A stretch of DNA of 64,000 nucleotides from Mycobacteroides immunogenum (lineage in GTDB: Bacteria; Actinomycetota; Actinomycetes; Mycobacteriales; Mycobacteriaceae). The position numbers and the translations under genes were made by a program. Where the stretch lies: the NCBI RefSeq assembly GCF_001605725.1, contig NZ_CP011530.1, forward strand, positions 2,604,001 through 2,668,000, given 5' to 3'. How positions within the stretch are numbered: position 1 is the first letter of the stretch; every line of letters starts with the position of its first letter. The notes beneath the pieces are model-generated. The model saw only the letters and a list, made by a program, of their open reading frames with translations, was not told the DNA's origin and did no database searches. Below, piece by piece: positions 21,350 to 43,233 of this stretch.

Positions 21350-21418
21350 TTCGGCCGGCGATTCCCTCTGGTCTCGACCGGGTCGTTAACTGGCGTAAAC
21401 TGGTCGCGCATCGCCCGC

Positions 21419-21651
21419 CAGCGGGAGAGTGTCATGACGGCCAGTCATGACCGCCGAAGGAGCAACACCTCTCCGTCAATCTCTCAGGCCCCCGAACCGC
21501 TCGTGGCCCCGATGCCTCTGAAAAGCGGTGATGCGGTTACCTAACCGGACCACCCGCCGACGGGGAAAGGCTTCTACCAGCAGATTCGGCAGGTAGAACG
21601 ACCGAATCTCTCAGGCGCCCGAGACGGGTTGATGACAGAGGGAGGGGAGAC
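21419..21651 (+). promoter_or_regulatory. tandem glycine riboswitch upstream of gcvP
   Basis: Two glycine aptamers in series. The first begins GCGGGAGAG (21421-21429), with core CCGAAGGAGCAA (21452-21463) and CTCTCAGGC (21481-21489). The linker GCCTCTGAAAAGCGG (21514-21528) is typical. The second has GACGGGGAAAGG (21559-21570), AATCTCTCAGG (21605-21615) and ends GATGACAGAGGGAGGGGAG (21631-21649). Both conserved CTCTCAGG elements and the GACAGAG closing strand are present. The purine-rich end could itself be a ribosome site, so control of gcvP may be at translation. Confidence 0.9.
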
Positions 21652-35414: not shown

Positions 35415-35822
35415 TTACGCGGTGGGGCGACCGCCAGCAGATGGATCTTTCGCCTCAAGATCGGCCAGCGCACGGCGTAGTGCGTCTGCCTCATCGGGGC
35501 CGACGCGCTCCACGAAGTGCACCAATGCGGCCTCGCGCGCGCCAGAGTTGTTGGCCTGCGCCAATGCGTCGACCATCAGGCCGGCCACCAGTTCGTCGCG
35601 GCCATGCACCGGGGCATAGCGGTGCGCGCGGTCATCGCGGTGTTGAACGACCAGGTCTTTCTTGGCAAGGCGTTGTAGCACGGTCATCACGGTCGTGTAG
35701 GCGAGATCACGCCGCACCGACAACGCTTCGTGGACCTGACGGACGGTCTGAGGCTCGGGGGAGGACCACAGGTGGTCCATCACCGCGCGTTCAAGTTCGC
35801 CCAGGCGTGCCATTCCGAACAT
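35415..35822 (-). CDS. blaI: BlaI/MecI-family repressor
   Basis: A 135-residue winged-helix repressor: GELERAVMDHLWSSPEPQTVRQVHEALSVRRDLAYTTVMTVLQRLAKKDLVVQHRDDRAHRYAPVHGRDELVAGLM is the DNA-binding half, followed by a helical dimer domain. Known homologue Rv1846c represses itself, blaC and ATP-synthase genes. ATG at 35822 is chosen as GGAGGTG lies 8 nt upstream; the ATG at 35813 is an alternative. An imperfect GTACTAC-type inverted repeat lies 27 nt upstream, a likely operator for autoregulation. Confidence 0.85.
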   Translation of the reverse strand: MFGMARLGELERAVMDHLWSSPEPQTVRQVHEALSVRRDLAYTTVMTVLQRLAKKDLVVQHRDDRAHRYAPVHGRDELVAGLMVDALAQANNSGAREAALVHFVERVGPDEADALRRALADLEAKDPSAGGRPTA

Positions 35823-35848
35823 TCTACGTTCACCTCCGACGCAATGCC

Positions 35849-35867: not shown

Positions 35868-36030
35868 TGCTTCTGACAGCCAACGATCCGGGACGCGGTC
35901 TTTGTTCCGGCGCTCGATCCGTTCTCGCTCGTCCTGGAGAGCGCGGGCCGCTCGCTGCCTATACGGCCCCACGATCAGGAACTTCGGTGAGGGCAGTCAC
36001 AACACCCGCACCTGGCGATGTCATCGTACA

Positions 36031-36049
36031 TGTGGTTAGGCTTACCTAT
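36031..36049. promoter_or_regulatory. IdeR (iron) box upstream of the FhuF-like gene
   Basis: TGTGGTTAGGCTTACCTAT matches 15 of 19 positions of the consensus TTAGGTTAGSCTAACCTAA. Its right end overlaps a -10 (TATCTT, 36047-36052), so iron-loaded IdeR would block the promoter. Confidence 0.7.
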
Positions 36050-36078
36050 CTTGTCTACGTGAAGGGAGGCTGCCAACT

Positions 36079-36837
36079 GTGACGCTGGCCATCGACCGAA
36101 CCTCTTCGACCAGGAGTCTCATCGCCGACGATCCGCTGATCGCCGGGATGTCCATCCGCCGGTCGCTGCCGCTGCATGAATCCAGCGCGCGGCTTCGTGA
36201 GCTGTACCCGGAATGTCCGCGCGCGTACGGCGTCGCCGTGATGTCCGATGTGGGCCGACGACGATGGTGGCCGCTGGCGCGCGCGCTGAATACCGATCGG
36301 CTCGAGCAGATGTATGCCCGCGCTGTCGATGAGACTGGCAGTGGCTCGATTGCCGTCCATCAGCTCGCGGACGCGCTGGTGCACACCGTGGTCGGGCGCC
36401 TGGTGGCTCTTGTGGTGCTGGAGGGTCGTGCCTGGGATCCGGGGCTCGGCAACCTATGGGTCTACTTCGACTCTGAAGGCTGCATCGACTGGGCCGGCGT
36501 GGTCGACCCGACGCTGCGCGTGTTGCCCGACGACCCTGATCGGGACCGTGAGCAGGTGGTGGTTTTTCCGGGCGAGGACGCTTTGGCGGCCTGGACCGCG
36601 CACCGATGCCACCGCGCGCTGGCGCCGTTGTTCACGCGCCTGTCGCAGGTCGGTTCCGGCGCGATGGAAATCGGCCAGATGTGGCAGCTGGTGGGCTCGA
36701 CAGTGGTGGGTGCGGCCACCCACGTTCCGCTGCTGGCGCGGTCCAGTGAGACCGACGGAATGCGGCGCGGGCAGGCGATCCTGGACCGGTTCATGACACT
36801 CGGATTGCCGGTCCGCCACAAAGCCCTTGCTATTTAG
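36079..36837 (+). CDS. IdeR-boxed FhuF-like iron-associated protein
   Basis: A 252-residue cytosolic protein. The layout LADALVHTVVGRLVALVVLEG, WDPGLGNLWVYFDSEGCIDWAG, AAWTAHRCHRALAPLFTRLSQVGSGAMEIGQMWQLVGSTVVGAATHVPLLAR and a final ILDRFMTLG resembles ferric-siderophore reductase (FhuF)-type proteins. It lacks the C-terminal Cys-Cys-x10-Cys-Cys [2Fe-2S] motif of true FhuF, so electron transfer is doubtful. GTG at 36079 has AGGGAGG about 10 nt upstream. The IdeR box directly upstream is the strongest clue that it serves iron acquisition. It is inserted between blaI and the MrsI-like locus relative to M. tuberculosis. Family call moderate; iron link stronger. Confidence 0.5.
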   Translation: MTLAIDRTSSTRSLIADDPLIAGMSIRRSLPLHESSARLRELYPECPRAYGVAVMSDVGRRRWWPLARALNTDRLEQMYARAVDETGSGSIAVHQLADALVHTVVGRLVALVVLEGRAWDPGLGNLWVYFDSEGCIDWAGVVDPTLRVLPDDPDRDREQVVVFPGEDALAAWTAHRCHRALAPLFTRLSQVGSGAMEIGQMWQLVGSTVVGAATHVPLLARSSETDGMRRGQAILDRFMTLGLPVRHKALAI

Positions 36838-36855
36838 GGCAGCCTTGCCTATCCT
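36827..36855 (+). promoter_or_regulatory. promoter with IdeR box for the MrsI-like sRNA
   Basis: TTGCTA (36827-36832), 17 nt, TATCCT (36850-36855). The IdeR box TTAGGGCAGCCTTGCCTAT (36834-36852, 14 of 19 consensus positions) fills the spacer and overlaps the -10. The -35 lies inside the 3' end of the upstream gene. Confidence 0.7.
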
Positions 36856-36861
36856 AAGTCT

Positions 36862-36985
36862 TGTCGAACGCGCCACAGCGCGACCAGACACCCGGACCGC
36901 GCCGGAGTCCTGAGGGCTGCAGAGACCCCCGGTCCACTCGAAGGAAGTGCCCCACCCGTTTCGGCGGGTGGGGCACTTCTTCGTT
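36862..36985 (+). ncRNA. mrsI: MrsI-like iron-responsive small RNA
   Basis: A stretch of about 120 nt without a gene, between an IdeR-box promoter (predicted start near 36862) and a strong terminator (36944-36979). It can form CGCGC/GCGCG (36869-36873 with 36878-36882, loop CACA) and CCGG/CCGG (36892-36895 with 36902-36905) hairpins. It lies between blaI and the Rv1847-like thioesterase, where M. tuberculosis encodes MrsI (ncRv11846), an IdeR-controlled sRNA that lowers expression of iron-containing proteins when iron is scarce. Location, promoter and length support homology; I could not compare sequences. The exact 5' end is inferred from the -10. Confidence 0.7.
36944..36979 (+). terminator. 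terminator of the MrsI-like RNA
   Basis: Perfect 15-bp arms (36944-36958, 36965-36979), loop TTTCGG, then TTCGTTAT. The strongest intrinsic-type terminator in the window, ending 34 nt before the thioesterase start. Confidence 0.85.
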
Positions 36986-37013
36986 ATCGGTGTCGCACTG
37001 ATATGAACATCAG

Positions 37014-37424
37014 ATGCCAGACACGCCGGAGCAGCTCAGCGCCATGCCCACCGCGCCCTTCGACAAACTTGTGGGGCTCGAATACACGTCGCTGACACCC
37101 GACGGTGTGACCGCCAGCCTCACCATCACCGAGAACCTTCTGCAGCCCAACGGGATCGTGCATGGCGGCGTGTACTGCTCGGTGGTCGAGAGTGTGGCGA
37201 GTGTGTCCGGATTCGTGTGGCGGGCCCATGCGCTGGGCGAGGAGAGCGCGGTGGTCGGCGTCAACAACAACACCGACTTTCTGCGAGCGATCTCGACCGG
37301 CACGCTCACCGCGGCGTCCACGCCCATACATCGGGGCCGTCGCCAGCAGCTGTGGCTCGTCACCATCACCGACGATCAAGGCCGAACAATCGCGCGCGGG
37401 CAGGTGCGTCTGCAGAACCTGTGA
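37014..37424 (+). CDS. PaaI-type hotdog thioesterase (Rv1847-like)
   Basis: A 136-residue single hotdog domain. Seen: FDKLVGLEYTSLTPDGVTASLTI, the helix signature QPNGIVHGGVYCSVVESVASV with the HGG turn, then VGVNNNTDFLRAISTGTLTAAS and WLVTITDDQGRTIARGQVR. Members hydrolyse acyl- or aryl-CoA thioesters; M. tuberculosis Rv1847 has reported thioesterase activity. In M. tuberculosis it directly precedes ureA; here four lipoprotein genes intervene on the other strand. Its stop is followed by a hairpin. Confidence 0.85.
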   Translation: MPDTPEQLSAMPTAPFDKLVGLEYTSLTPDGVTASLTITENLLQPNGIVHGGVYCSVVESVASVSGFVWRAHALGEESAVVGVNNNTDFLRAISTGTLTAASTPIHRGRRQQLWLVTITDDQGRTIARGQVRLQNL

Positions 37425-37555: not shown

Positions 37556-38368
37556 TCAGCTCAGCTGCAGTTTGTCGACGATCATGTCGGCCATCTTCTG
37601 CACCAGCTGCTTTGAATTGCTTCGCGCGCACACCTGGGTCTGCACAACGACATTGGCGACCCCGTTGTACGACACGAAGCAGCGGTACTTGCTCGGCCCG
37701 TAGGTCAAGACCCAGTTCGCCCTCTTGGCTTCGGTGCGCGACACGGAAACCGTCACCGGCACCTTGTTGCCCTCCGGATCAGTGAAGTTGTAGGTCTTCC
37801 CGTCGCATTCCTTGACCTGGTCGCTGGCCGTCGCGAATTGCGATTGAGCCGCGTTCTTGTCGCTGTAGGCGGCGATGGCCTGATACACCTGCGCGTCCGG
37901 GCTCTTGGCGTCGCCGAGCAGCATCTCGGTACCGCGGAACGTCTCGTAGTCCTTACCGACCGACTCGACCGTAAGCCCCTGCGTCACATTGCAGCTCGTG
38001 TCGTCGGATGCGGTGGCCGTGAAGGGCTTGTCCCGCTTGTTCGTTTTGGCGACTTCGGTGTCCAGGGCCCTGGCGATCTCCTCGTCGGTGAACAGCGCCG
38101 CCACCATGGCTTCCTCGGTGATCTTGTCCTGGCCGGGCCATCCCGTCAGCCCGGCCGGTCCAGTGTCCGGCAGCGACGGCGCCGGTGCGTTCACGCTCCG
38201 TGAGGTTGTCGCCGTGGCAGGGGCGGCAGTCTCGTGCGTGTCCTGCTGGGCGCCGCACCCGGCCAGTGCCAGCACGGCGATCGCCGTCGCACACAGCGCC
38301 GCGCTGACCTGCTTCCGCACGGCCTTTCCCGCCATGAGCCCCCCTGCTGTGTTCTTCACCGCGGTCAT
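37556..38368 (-). CDS. PknH-like sensor-domain lipoprotein (4th of four)
   Basis: A 270-residue secreted lipoprotein with signal peptide and lipobox IAVLALAGC, a Ser/Thr/Pro-rich linker and an extracytoplasmic domain of the PknH/LppH sensor type, with paired cysteines (CNVTQGL, KECDGKTY, RCFVSYN, QVCARSN). This fold is the sensor of M. tuberculosis PknH and of LppH; the ligand is unknown. ATG at 38368 overlaps the upstream paralogue's stop by 4 nt, so it is the last gene of a four-gene operon. It is the most divergent member: the YDH/YIV-type motif of the others is YQAIAAYSD here. Confidence 0.75.
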   Translation of the reverse strand: MTAVKNTAGGLMAGKAVRKQVSAALCATAIAVLALAGCGAQQDTHETAAPATATTSRSVNAPAPSLPDTGPAGLTGWPGQDKITEEAMVAALFTDEEIARALDTEVAKTNKRDKPFTATASDDTSCNVTQGLTVESVGKDYETFRGTEMLLGDAKSPDAQVYQAIAAYSDKNAAQSQFATASDQVKECDGKTYNFTDPEGNKVPVTVSVSRTEAKRANWVLTYGPSKYRCFVSYNGVANVVVQTQVCARSNSKQLVQKMADMIVDKLQLS

Positions 38369-39129
38369 GCCGGAATCCACTCGGCCATGCGATCGACGAT
38401 CGCGGAAACTATCGGAGCGCCATTGCCGTTCTGGCACAACAGGCTTCCGAAGAGCACGTTGTTCTTCGTGCGGTAGTCGTAGAAGCACCGCCATCCCGTG
38501 GGCTTCCCGTTCTCGGTTGCTTGCCGCATCCATTTCACGCTGGTGCCGTCGTTGGTGATGTCGCCGATCTGCCATTCGGCATCACCCTCGGTTTGACGGG
38601 AGCCCGTGCAGGAGGACAACGACCGTGGATAGGCCGCCTGTAGCTGGCTCGCCGCGGCCTTAGGGTCCGGGAACAGCACCACGGACTGCCAGACGATGTG
38701 GTCGTAGCGCTTTTCCGTTTCCTGCTGGCGAGCACCCCGGTAGGTGGTCCATTCGTCGCCCAGCACCTCGGTGCGCAGCCCCGTCAATGCCTGACACTTG
38801 CCCGATGCGAGCGAATCGCTCGGGCTGGACGACTTGAACTCGTATGTCAGCGGGGAGCCGACGAGTCGGCCCGCATCGTCGGCGGAAATGATGATCGACC
38901 CCGCCTTGTCCGGTGTCACGACCACCGGCGCAGGTGGTGCCAGCGAGGTCGTCACCGGTGGTGCACTGGACTTGGGGCTCGCGATTGCCGCGTCCGGTCC
39001 CTTGTCGGAAGCGGTCGACGTCTGGGTCGCCCCGACCGGTATCGGCTTGATACCACCGCTTTGTGTGCCGCACCCGACCGCGAGCACCGCCACCAGGCCA
39101 AGCCATCCGGCGGTCAACACGTGACGCAT
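38365..39129 (-). CDS. PknH-like sensor-domain lipoprotein (3rd of four)
   Basis: A 254-residue lipoprotein. Signal peptide MRHVLTAGWLGLVAVLAVGC with lipobox AVGC, then a 55-residue Thr/Ala/Pro linker and the sensor domain: PLTYEFKSSSPSDSLASGKCQALTG, WTTYRGARQQETEKRYDHIVWQSVVLFPDPKAAASQLQAAYPRSLSSC and FGSLLCQNGNGAP. Four cysteines suggest two disulfides. ATG at 39129 has GGGAGG about 7 nt upstream. Part of the tandem paralogue set; it is closest in motif to the first gene (39971-40726): both share WTTYR, FYDYRTKNNVLFG-type strands and end in AEWIP/AAWIP. Confidence 0.8.
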   Translation of the reverse strand: MRHVLTAGWLGLVAVLAVGCGTQSGGIKPIPVGATQTSTASDKGPDAAIASPKSSAPPVTTSLAPPAPVVVTPDKAGSIIISADDAGRLVGSPLTYEFKSSSPSDSLASGKCQALTGLRTEVLGDEWTTYRGARQQETEKRYDHIVWQSVVLFPDPKAAASQLQAAYPRSLSSCTGSRQTEGDAEWQIGDITNDGTSVKWMRQATENGKPTGWRCFYDYRTKNNVLFGSLLCQNGNGAPIVSAIVDRMAEWIPA

Positions 39130-39227
39130 CCCATTCCCTCCCTGTCGACATGGGCCCACATCGACCCAAATCATGGCTAGATCGGATCGCCCGCGCCCAG
39201 TGTTACACGAGCGCCGAAATCGACTAC

Positions 39228-39959
39228 CTACTTCGATTTGGTAGCGCCGGCCACCATCCGGTCGATGATCGCCTTCATTGCCGGCGCGCTGTTGCCACGC
39301 TGGCATACGGTCACCGATAGCAGCAGATTGTCGATAACACGTGCTTCATCGCTGCAGCGCCATCCGTTGGCTTGCCCGTTATCGAGGGATTCGTCCGCCC
39401 ACTGCGCCCGGTCGGAGGTCACGTCCTTGACCGTCTCCCGCCACGACGATTCACCGGATTTGAGCACCTCGCCCGTACAGCTGCGGATATCCGCCGGATA
39501 TTGGCTGGCGAATGCCTCTGCTGCCGCATCTGCCTTGGGATACAGCACCACGCGTTGGCTCACCCAATGGTCATAGGTTTTCTCGGCCTCCTGCAACCAC
39601 ACATTGCGGTAGGTCGTCCACGATTCGCCGAGGCTCAGGGTCAAAGGAGCGACAAGCGACCGGCACGACTCCTTGCCATCGATCGTCGGCTTCCCCGGGT
39701 TGGAGGACTTTCCCTCGTAGTCAAGTTCGGAACCGACCAGCTGACTCACGTCGTCCTTCGGCAGGATGAGCGAGTTGGCCTTATCCGGGCTGATCACGTC
39801 TGCCGTGGCCGCCGCCGATGTCTGCGACGCGCCCGAGGCCGCCGAAGGCCCGGATGTCGTCGTGCCCTGTTGGCTGCTGCCGAAGAACGAACACCCCGTC
39901 ACGACAATTCCTGCACCGGCCACGATCGCGGCCTTACGGAAAACCGATGCGCCAGTCAC
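39228..39959 (-). CDS. PknH-like sensor-domain lipoprotein (2nd of four)
   Basis: A 243-residue lipoprotein with signal peptide VFRKAAIVAGAGIVVTGC (lipobox VTGC), a short Ser/Thr/Ala linker and a sensor domain with ELDYEGKSSNPGKPTIDGKESC, WTTYRNVWLQEAEKTYDHWVSQRVVLYPKADAAAEAFASQYPADIRSC and VTVCQRGNSAPAMKAIIDRM. GTG at 39959 is chosen: AAAGGA stands 6 nt before it, and the upstream paralogue's stop is immediately before that. The ATG at 39986 would overlap the upstream gene. Sensor ligand unknown. Confidence 0.8.
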   Translation of the reverse strand: MTGASVFRKAAIVAGAGIVVTGCSFFGSSQQGTTTSGPSAASGASQTSAAATADVISPDKANSLILPKDDVSQLVGSELDYEGKSSNPGKPTIDGKESCRSLVAPLTLSLGESWTTYRNVWLQEAEKTYDHWVSQRVVLYPKADAAAEAFASQYPADIRSCTGEVLKSGESSWRETVKDVTSDRAQWADESLDNGQANGWRCSDEARVIDNLLLSVTVCQRGNSAPAMKAIIDRMVAGATKSK

Positions 39960-39970
39960 CGTCGGTCCTT

Positions 39971-40726
39971 TCACTGTGGGATCCATGCGGCGATCCGATC
40001 GGTAATGGTCGTGACTCCGGGAACGCCGTCGCCGTACTGGCACAGATATCCCCCGAAGAGCACGTTGTTCTTGGTGCGGAAGTCAAAGAAGCAGTGCCAT
40101 GGCGAGCTCTCCGTGGTCTGCAGCTGAGCCCAGGTGGCCGAGGTAGGGGAGGTTTGTGCCAGGCTGCTGATCTTCCAGTGCTGATCCAGCACGGTGAGTT
40201 CCGCACCCTGGCAGGTCTTGAACGCGGAGGCCGGATATGCCTGCGCGAACGCCGCGGCGGCCTCCTCACGCGTGGGGTACAGAACCGCCACCTGTCCGAC
40301 GATGTACGAGGTTTGGTCCTTGGTCTCGCGGTAGTAGTTCCAGCGGTACGTGGTCCACTCGGATCCCAATTGCGCGGCCCGTGGATGGTCCAGGTTGGTG
40401 CAATCAGGCGGGCCGGTCAGCGTGTCTGTCGGCGGTGACGAACGGTTTTGATCGAACTCCAGCGTGGTGCCCAGAATCTTCCCGATATCGGCACGTGAGC
40501 CGAGGATCGATTCGATCTTGTCCGGCGTGACCACCAGAGGTGGCGGCGCGGGCGCCTTGGTGGTGGTGGGGACGGACTGGGGCGCCGAGGTGCCCGCGGT
40601 CATCGGCATGTCCGCGGTAGTGGTGGACGGCGCTGCCACCGGCTTGATCCCCTCGCTGGGTTGCGTGCATCCGGTCATCAGCACCGCTGCCGACACCACA
40701 CACCCCAACGCCATTCGATACCGCAT
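39971..40726 (-). CDS. PknH-like sensor-domain lipoprotein (1st of four)
   Basis: A 251-residue lipoprotein: signal MRYRMALGCVVSAAVLMTGC with lipobox MTGC, a Thr/Pro-rich linker and the sensor domain with LEFDQNRSSPPTDTLTGPPDC, WTTYRWNYYRETKDQTSYIVGQVAVLYPTREEAAAAFAQAYPASAFKTC and GGYLCQYGDGVPGVTTITDRIAAWIP. ATG at 40726 has AGGAGGG about 6 nt upstream. It heads a four-gene operon divergent from urease. No cognate kinase gene lies nearby, so the set is likely a group of free sensor or cell-wall lipoproteins. Confidence 0.8.
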   Translation of the reverse strand: MRYRMALGCVVSAAVLMTGCTQPSEGIKPVAAPSTTTADMPMTAGTSAPQSVPTTTKAPAPPPLVVTPDKIESILGSRADIGKILGTTLEFDQNRSSPPTDTLTGPPDCTNLDHPRAAQLGSEWTTYRWNYYRETKDQTSYIVGQVAVLYPTREEAAAAFAQAYPASAFKTCQGAELTVLDQHWKISSLAQTSPTSATWAQLQTTESSPWHCFFDFRTKNNVLFGGYLCQYGDGVPGVTTITDRIAAWIPQ

Positions 40727-40871
40727 GTGCACCCTCCTGATCGACTCACTACACAGCGAACTCGGGGAGATTCTTGCATTCACGATCTCTACTGCGCCGC
40801 AAAACCCGGTACTGCCTGTGCGGGTTCTGTGAAAATGCCGGGCCGCACGGATCGTGGCAGGATCGCCCCTT

Positions 40872-41174
40872 ATGCGATTGACCCCGCACGAGCAGGAACG
40901 GCTGCTCATCTCGTACGCGGCGGAATTGGCGCGCCGCCGCCAGTCCCGAGGCCTGCTTCTCAACCATCCCGAAGCCATCGCGGTCATCACCGACCATCTG
41001 CTCGAAGGTGCCCGCGACGGTCGCACCGTCTCGGAACTGATGGTCAGCGGCCGTGAAGTGCTTGGGCGTCACGACGTCATGGACGGCGTGCCCGAGATGA
41101 TTCCGGATGTCCAGGTGGAGGCGACGTTTCCCGACGGCACCAAACTCGTCACCGTGCATCACCCGATCGGATGA
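40872..41174 (+). CDS. ureA: urease subunit gamma
   Basis: A 100-residue structural subunit. [44 protein letters not shown] and [19 protein letters not shown] are the standard gamma-subunit landmarks. ATG at 40872 is used instead of an in-frame GTG 18 nt upstream because the family starts at MRLTP. It leads ureABCFGD, with 4-nt overlaps through ureC. Urease hydrolyses urea to ammonia and CO2. A 146-nt divergent spacer separates it from the lipoprotein operon; no clear nitrogen-control site is visible in it. Confidence 0.95.
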
Positions 41175-41503: not shown

Positions 41504-43233
41504 CCAGGTTGACGCGAGAGCACTACGCCAAGCTGTACGGCCCAACGACCGGTGACCGGATTCGTTTGGCCGACACCGATCTGATCATCGAAATCACCGA
41601 AGATCGTTCTGGGGGACCCGGTCTGGCGGGCGAAGAAGCCGTCTTCGGCGGCGGCAAGGTGCTCCGGGAGTCGATGGGGCAGAGCCGTCTCACGCGGGCC
41701 GGCGGTTCGCCAGACACGGTGATCACCGGCGCCATCATCATCGACTATTGGGGAGTCATCAAGGCCGACATAGGTATCCGTGACGGCCGTATTGTCGGCA
41801 TCGGCAAGGCGGGCAACCCGGACATCATGGATGGGGTAGACCCCGCCCTGATCGTCGGGCCGTCCACCGAGATCATCGCCGGCAACAACCGGATCGTGAC
41901 CGCCGGGGGCATCGATTGTCACGTGCATTTCATCTGCCCGCAGATCTTGCCCGAGGCGCTTAGCGGCGGTATCACCACGATGATCGGCGGCGGTACCGGG
42001 CCGGCCGAGGGGAGCAAGGCCACCACGGTGACGCCCGGTGCGTGGCATCTGGGACGGATGCTGCAGGCCCTGGACGGCTGGCCCATGAACATCCTGATGC
42101 TGGGCAAGGGCAACACCGTGAACCCGGACGCGATGTGGGAGCAATTGCGGGGCGGGGCAGCAGGTTTCAAACTGCACGAGGATTGGGGCACCACCCCGGC
42201 GGTGATCGACGCCTGTCTGCGGGTCGCCGACGAGGCCGACGTCCAGGTCGCCTTGCACTCGGACACCCTCAATGAGACCGGTTTCGTGGAAGGGACATTG
42301 GCGGCCATCGGTGGGCGCGCGATCCACGCGTATCACACCGAGGGCGCGGGCGGCGGTCATGCACCTGACATCATCACCGTGGCCAGCTATCCGAACGTGA
42401 TGCCCAGTTCCACCAACCCCACCCGGCCGCATACGGTCAACACCCTCGACGAACATCTCGACATGCTGATGGTCTGTCATCATCTCAATGCCGCGGTGCC
42501 GGAGGACTTGGCCTTCGCGGAGAGCCGCATCCGGCCGTCCACCATCGCCGCCGAGGATCTGCTGCACGATATCGGTGCGATCTCCATGATCGGCAGCGAC
42601 AGTCAGGCCATGGGGCGCATCGGTGAGGTGGTCATGCGGACCTGGCAGACGGCACACGTGATGAAGAAACGTCGCGGCGCATTGGCGGGGGATCCCTCCG
42701 GGCCCAACGGAAACGACAACAATCGCGTGCGCCGATACGTCGCGAAGTACACGATCTGCCCGGCGATAACGCACGGCATCGACCACGAGATCGGTTCGGT
42801 GGAAGTGGGTAAGCTCGCCGACCTGGTGTTGTGGGAACCGGCTTTTTTCGGGGTGCGGCCCCATGCCGTCATCAAGGGCGGTGGCATCGTCTGGGCGGCC
42901 ATGGGTGACGCCAACGCGTCAATTCCCACGCCACAACCGGTGTTTCCGCGTCCGATGTTCAGTGCCATGCATGCCGTCGCGGCGGGACTGGCAGTGCATT
43001 TCGTATCGCCGACGGCCATCGAAGACGACCTGGCGGCACGACTCGCGTTGCGGCGCAGACTCGTCCCCACGCGCGATGTCCGAAATCGCGGCAAGGCGGA
43101 TCTGCCACTCAACGACGCGATGCCCGACATCCGAGTGGATCCCGATACCTTCACCGTGCGCATCGACGGTGAGATATGGGAAGAGCAACCGGCGACAGAA
43201 TTGCCGATGGCACAACGATATTTCCTGTTCTGA
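41500..43233 (+). CDS. ureC: urease subunit alpha (catalytic)
   Basis: A 577-residue nickel metallohydrolase. Seen: the first nickel ligands in [10 protein letters not shown] (His141, His143), the carbamylated bridging lysine in [12 protein letters not shown] (Lys224), further ligands in ALHSDTLNE and [15 protein letters not shown], and the flexible active-site flap [22 protein letters not shown] containing the conserved Cys-His. Length and catalytic residues are complete, so activity is expected given nickel and the accessory proteins. ATG overlaps ureB by 4 nt. Confidence 0.97.

Follow-up and report, generated by a model that had tools for sequence, protein, structure and literature searches.

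The 64,000-nucleotide (nt) stretch of Mycobacteroides immunogenum DNA analyzed here (hereafter the window) covers positions 2,604,001–2,668,000 of a genome consisting of a single 5.57-Mb contig. As judged from its sequence, the region 36862–36985 of the window very probably encodes the orthologue of MrsI (ncRv11846), the IdeR-controlled iron-sparing small RNA (sRNA) known from Mycobacterium tuberculosis and M. smegmatis. The orthology is well supported by synteny, an IdeR box, a hairpin with a 7-nt apical loop, a terminator and genus-wide conservation, and on these traits it bears out the proposal of the original prediction. An MrsI orthologue is an expected finding in this species, and the new elements are its family-wide spread, a fixed loop with covarying stems, a FhuF-like partner and a missing bfrA target. 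Taken together, MrsI is likely to be no mycobacterial invention but an RNA of long standing in the GTDB family Mycobacteriaceae, where 22 of 31 sampled genera have it. In this reading, it shares a conserved, IdeR-controlled iron locus with two genes, one for a FhuF-like protein and the other for an EntH-like thioesterase; the loop is fixed while the stems drift, and the target set shifts by lineage, with the result that the RNA persists in this Mycobacteroides without bfrA.

In reviews, MrsI is described as an independent, structured transcript of ~100 nt from the blaI–rv1847 interval, with an IdeR site at its promoter, an apical loop of 7 nt and a rho-independent terminator. The 7-nt apical loop and direct binding to bfrA have been published, according to PMC11188477. 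The locus in the window (Table 1) is similar in each of these respects, and the promoter, the 14/19 IdeR box, the gene-free interval of about 120 nt and the 15-bp terminator described by the original prediction are all present. Each promoter hexamer agrees with the generic consensus at four of six positions, and both hexamer regions are kept in most of 34 aligned rows. When the window was scored at 19 positions against the IdeR consensus TTAGGTTAGGCTAACCTAA or its reverse complement, only two places reached 14/19 or better, whereas in 30 dinucleotide shuffles such places averaged 0.03 and never exceeded 1. One of them is the predicted IdeR site at the sRNA promoter, which is kept in sequence across the aligned relatives; overlying the spacer and reaching into the −10 hexamer, it would suit repression by iron-loaded IdeR. 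The other place, with a score of 15/19, had gone unmentioned and lies 5′ of the neighboring gene for a 252-residue protein. As for position, the original prediction placed the sRNA between blaI and an Rv1847-like thioesterase gene. The thioesterase gene indeed follows on the 3′ side, but blaI is separated from the sRNA by the 252-residue gene, whose final codons include the −35 hexamer. The sRNA thus occupies the blaI–Rv1847 interval with one extra gene, as in other rapid growers.

Table 1 Features of the sRNA locus and its surroundings, in window coordinates.
Feature	Positions	Strand	Details and basis
BlaI-family repressor	35415–35834	−	Conserved neighbor
IdeR-type box 5′ of the FhuF-like gene	36031–36049	+	15/19; consensus scoring
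FhuF-like protein, 252 residues	36079–36837	+	Open reading frame; family and model matches; 3′ end contains the sRNA −35 hexamer
Predicted promoter TTGCTA-N17-TATCCT	36827–36855	+	−35 at 36827–36832, −10 at 36850–36855; transcription start predicted near 36862
IdeR-type box at the sRNA promoter	36834–36857	+	TTAGGGCAGCCTTGCCTAT at 36834–36852 (14/19) plus overlapping 13/19 match at 36839–36857; spans spacer and −10
MrsI sRNA (very probable orthologue)	36862–36985	+	~119–124 nt, both ends predicted
Extra 5′ hairpin CGCGC-N4-GCGCG	36869–36882	+	Common to all seven Mycobacteroides-group loci (L003–L009)
Core hairpin	36894–36935	+	Outer stem GGACCG/CGGUCC; inner stem GUC-CUG/CAG-GAC
7-nt apical loop AGGGCUG, probable seed	36913–36919	+	Fold, comparison, bfrA sites
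Predicted intrinsic terminator	36944–36985	+	15-bp stem GAAGTGCCCCACCCG / CGGGTGGGGCACTTC, 36944–36958 with 36965–36979; tail TTCGTT
Rv1847-like hotdog thioesterase	37014–37424	+	Usual downstream neighbor: 77/80 named loci, 20/20 other-genus loci

Named loci for comparison were fetched via BlaI (the best 80 of at least 474), and among the matches listed the closest were those of the Mycobacteroides group. When the window stretch was compared with them by blastn, the corresponding place was matched in nearly all 80; the core showed 94–98% identity across 52 nt in seven loci of distant rapid growers. The named relatives M. gastri, M. persicum and M. innocens align with the sRNA; at H37Rv 2096766, the published MrsI coordinates, there was no match among the matches listed. 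The sRNA was extracted directly in 76 of the 80 loci using a motif taken from the IdeR box, and CTGAGGGCTGCAG is exact in 75 of these. The box is present in 76/76, a count that is circular because the loci were picked by a motif lying within it. The four remaining loci are L045 and L075, which were recovered by a covariance model, L059, where the contig ends inside the sRNA, and L078, where the sRNA is interrupted. L045 has a 14/19 box. In L075 (M. montefiorense, 2740–2870) the box is weakened by a short change in its 3′ part (~13/19 by eye), and the RNA carries a compensatory stem swap. In L078 (Mycobacterium sp. MAG WOFB04, ~983–2676) ~1.6 kb separates the core hairpin from the terminator, the core lacks an IdeR-type box upstream of it (9/19 at best), and the FhuF-like gene is reduced to a short piece.

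The predicted RNA structure is supported by both energy and covariation. The fold of the 124 nt from 36862 had an energy of −68.3 kcal/mol (z = −5.8), which none of 200 shuffles equaled. Besides the window sequence, alignments A1 and A2 took in 42 of the 76 directly extracted ones, for 43 sequences in all; alignment A3, with 54, combined the window sequence with 33 of the 76 and 20 other-genus loci. In the 54 sequences the proposed structure was paired in 93.9% of the cells, compared with 35–45% for slid structures, over which it had an advantage in being drawn from the window sequence itself. Two-sided changes were observed in 21 of 27 pairs (outer stem 3/6, inner stem 3/6, terminator 15/15), and on each of five measures all 500 shuffles scored lower. 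The loop AGGGCUG is nearly invariant between flanking stems with compensatory changes. For example, the inner-stem U–A pair beside the loop-closing G–C is swapped to A–U in L075 and L152 and replaced by C–G in L158, and the loop is still AGGGCUG in all three; the variant UGGGCUG was found in L011 and L151. The stretch between the box and the core varies in length among species. The hairpin has a 7-nt apical loop, as in MrsI, which would present a seed of 6–8 nt and probably corresponds to the published seed. A rho-independent terminator is likewise predicted at the 3′ end, though a generic scan was silent on it.

Covariance model R1, built on 43 sequences, found a single match in this genome at E-values up to 10, and under stricter filters that lost some weak matches it found the RNA in 260 of 297 sampled genus genomes at E 0.001. 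Sampling of the GTDB family Mycobacteriaceae covered 31 genera with 201 genomes. By row count, 21 genera including Mycobacterium had a match at E 1e-5 or better (the 30/31 genera matched at E 1 include chance matches). One strong match per genus was fetched from 20 other genera. An IdeR-type box of at least 14/19 lay within 110 nt upstream in all 20 loci, and the covariance model contains no IdeR box; the thioesterase gene was downstream in all of them. These 20/20 figures describe matches and not all genomes, because each genus is represented by one strong match. A search of 40 poorly matching genomes with the wider model R2, followed by a strand-corrected check of the loop, added genus g26 and brought the total to 22/31. 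Its locus (L168) has the loop, a 14/19 box and the outer stem GGAGUC/GACUCC, which differs in sequence yet is paired. Outside Mycobacterium the RNA was found in 21 genera, with a box upstream in 21/21 loci examined. Among 30 weak R2 matches, a box accompanied three of the four with the loop and none of the 26 without it, the latter being mostly terminators alone. No credible match was found in nine of the 31 genera (g3, g4, g5, g8, g12, g14, g15, g18 and g31), and the R2 matches given a locus there were without the loop. An order-wide draw of 249 genomes gave 36 matches at E 0.001, 35 of them in this family and one (E 4.8e-4) in another. These relatives suggest that the mycobacterial name understates both the age and the spread of the RNA. 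In the literature searched, which omits most subscription papers, no report of MrsI outside mycobacteria or in Mycobacteroides was found. PMC4974804 lists other sRNA homologues in M. abscessus, and its main text contains neither ncRv nor IdeR. A literature search with the loop sequence returned one paper, which was unrelated.

The original prediction also held that a new gene had been inserted beside the sRNA. The comparison does not support this: the gene is FhuF-like, it stands in the same place in 38 of the 80 named loci (to judge by name, those of Mycobacteroides and other rapid growers) and in 11 of the 20 other-genus loci, and a box of at least 14/19 lies within ~250 nt upstream of it in 49/49 loci. 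PF06276 matched 7 of 25 members of the FhuF-like family at E up to 1 (best 2.6e-5); the 252-residue protein of the window had no PF06276 match at E up to 1, and NCBIfam gave nothing. Its predicted structure (mean predicted local distance difference test score 90.3) was best matched by NIS siderophore synthetases (E 5.9e-4), while E. coli FhuF was matched over a similar length with E 6.3e-3 and template modeling scores of 0.50/0.52. In a thioesterase tree, the label for presence of the FhuF-like gene needs 4 changes, compared with 32.5 when labels were shuffled, and the 40 loci without the gene (slow growers by their names) form one clade nested among the carriers. Loss in slow growers is more likely than insertion here, in a tree whose few columns, midpoint root and many open forks do not firmly polarize gain and loss. 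Unlike the MrsI locus of slow growers, where the gene is missing, the locus described here has it between blaI and the sRNA; the RNA also differs from published MrsI in its greater predicted length and its extra 5′ hairpin.

The putative seed was compared with the start regions of bfrA. These were taken from 20 of 45 mycobacterial genomes, in which a match was judged to be bfrA by its position or list order; the N-terminal sequence served to recognize bfrA. One incomplete stretch (L245) was dropped, leaving 19 usable genes. Seven carry CAGCCCTCA exactly and three more pair fully when G–U is allowed. Full complementarity to the loop plus two bases beside it is thus present in ten of the 19, in the zone from −28 to −17 ahead of the start codon. 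For each of these ten genes, only 1 to 6 of 200 shuffles were as good. Sites scoring 8 or better were found in 15/19, against a shuffle mean of 5.3 and a maximum of 12. The conserved candidate site fits the published pairing of MrsI with bfrA.

Several results weigh against the assignment or narrow what it predicts. The likeness to M. tuberculosis MrsI was judged on published traits, and a generic consensus scan of 35900–37100 reported neither a promoter nor a terminator. Nine of the 19 bfrA genes are without a perfect site: five reach 8/9 (one outside the zone) and four 7/9, levels often reached by shuffles. In the present genome, no bfrA-type gene was found among the three matches to PF00210 (ferritin family), which are two adjacent ferritins and a Dps-like protein; judged by sequence, the two ferritins are presumably of the BfrB type. 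Exact 9-nt target sites number 30 in this genome, one being the complement of the sRNA itself, compared with 44 for the reversed control, and no iron-protein gene was recognized by eye among them, no family scan having been made. The 9-nt sites are thus not enriched in this genome. The predicted iron-sparing response has only partial justification, the gene of the best-known target not having been found here. Within the genus, 37 of the 297 sampled genomes had no R1 match. Re-searching 11 genus genomes with R2 left nine without a credible match (G016, G022, G069, G073, G078, G083, G101, G130 and G150), as well as G115, a 3.3-Mb single-contig genome. In G075, also a 3.3-Mb single contig, a 55-nt weak match (L170) has the loop and an 11/19 box and lacks the terminator stem, and is decayed; sRNA decay in reduced genomes is possible for G075 and G115. 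The RNA is thus not universal in the genus, because some re-searched genomes are without a credible match.

Two tandem ferritins lie at G000:C1:184928–186055 (L136, L137), with an IdeR-like sequence 5′ of one of them as seen by eye. Longer target sites were considered and rejected: the 13-nt complement of the loop region with one mismatch occurs at 7 places, the sRNA included, compared with 13 for the reversed control, and the one exact 13-nt match besides the sRNA lies in the 3′ end of a gene. The nine matchless genus genomes are 4.3–5.3 Mb in size and are possibly one clade that lost the sRNA.

The missing bfrA raises the question of whether the regulon has been rewired, with the RNA now acting chiefly on other mRNAs and its general iron-sparing role gone. 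The promoter, loop and stems are kept even though bfrA is absent among the PF00210 matches, which speaks for such a change; published MrsI has further targets (hypF and fprA), so losing one need not alter its role, and we regard rewiring as rather unlikely. It is less probable still that the element serves mainly as a 5′ leader or attenuator of the thioesterase gene, in which one IdeR-controlled transcript would be formed and the hairpin and terminator would set read-through. The constant downstream position of the thioesterase gene in the other genera would be in keeping with this, as would the short distance in the window (only 28 nt from 36985 to the ATG at 37014) and the resemblance of the product to EntH-type proofreading thioesterases, though below the cut-off of that model. 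However, the most conserved part is the loop, which matches the bfrA mRNA site in trans, and the reviews give MrsI as an independent transcript; attenuator and sRNA roles could also coexist. A recurring GTGTAGACA motif was seen shortly 5′ of the thioesterase start in many loci (e.g. L036, L047 and L079) and is perhaps a separate promoter of that gene or an operator.

Coding of a short protein is unlikely at this place. The longest frame from a start codon across the sRNA begins with TTG and has 46 codons. ATG or TTG occurs there in four of the seven Mycobacteroides-group loci, but the other three have no start at that place and the stretch between the box and the core varies in length across species. 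With paired stems that covary and boxes that recur in other genera, it is scarcely credible that the locus encodes a short protein, or is dead intergenic DNA whose IdeR-like box arose by chance.

Under the preferred assignment as MrsI, the following mechanism can be proposed. With enough iron, IdeR–Fe2+ would bind the box at the sRNA promoter and block the −10 region. When iron falls, the promoter would fire and yield the predicted RNA of ~120 nt, composed of a group-specific 5′ hairpin, a core hairpin presenting AGGGCUG and a terminator, a structure backed by covariation. The loop may then pair with sites just 5′ of the start codons of mRNAs for dispensable iron proteins and lower their expression, a step published for bfrA in other mycobacteria and suggested here by target-site conservation. 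The sRNA would do so from within an old iron locus shared with the IdeR-boxed FhuF-like gene and the thioesterase gene. The same logic of an iron-repressed sRNA lowering iron-protein mRNAs is described for RyhB, PrrF, FsrA and IsrR in PMC9410917; these are likened by description only, as analogues and not relatives.

Other features were observed elsewhere in the window. Rfam family 5_ureB_sRNA matched 41665–41953 on the reverse strand with 76 bits, and tandem glycine riboswitch aptamers lie at 21412–21648 on the forward strand. Several adjoining lipoprotein-like genes occupy 37556–41026 on the reverse strand, of which 37556–38575 has a PknH-like sensor domain and the others are similar by eye.

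At the gathering score, the sole threshold applied, no Rfam family matched the sRNA locus, and the present analysis yields an alignment and a covariance model for this RNA. The comparative evidence points to the loop as the seed. With the spread described here, putative control of iron sparing by RNA reaches beyond mycobacteria into many genera related to them, and the case of M. immunogenum suggests that such an RNA can be kept while its best-known target is missing.
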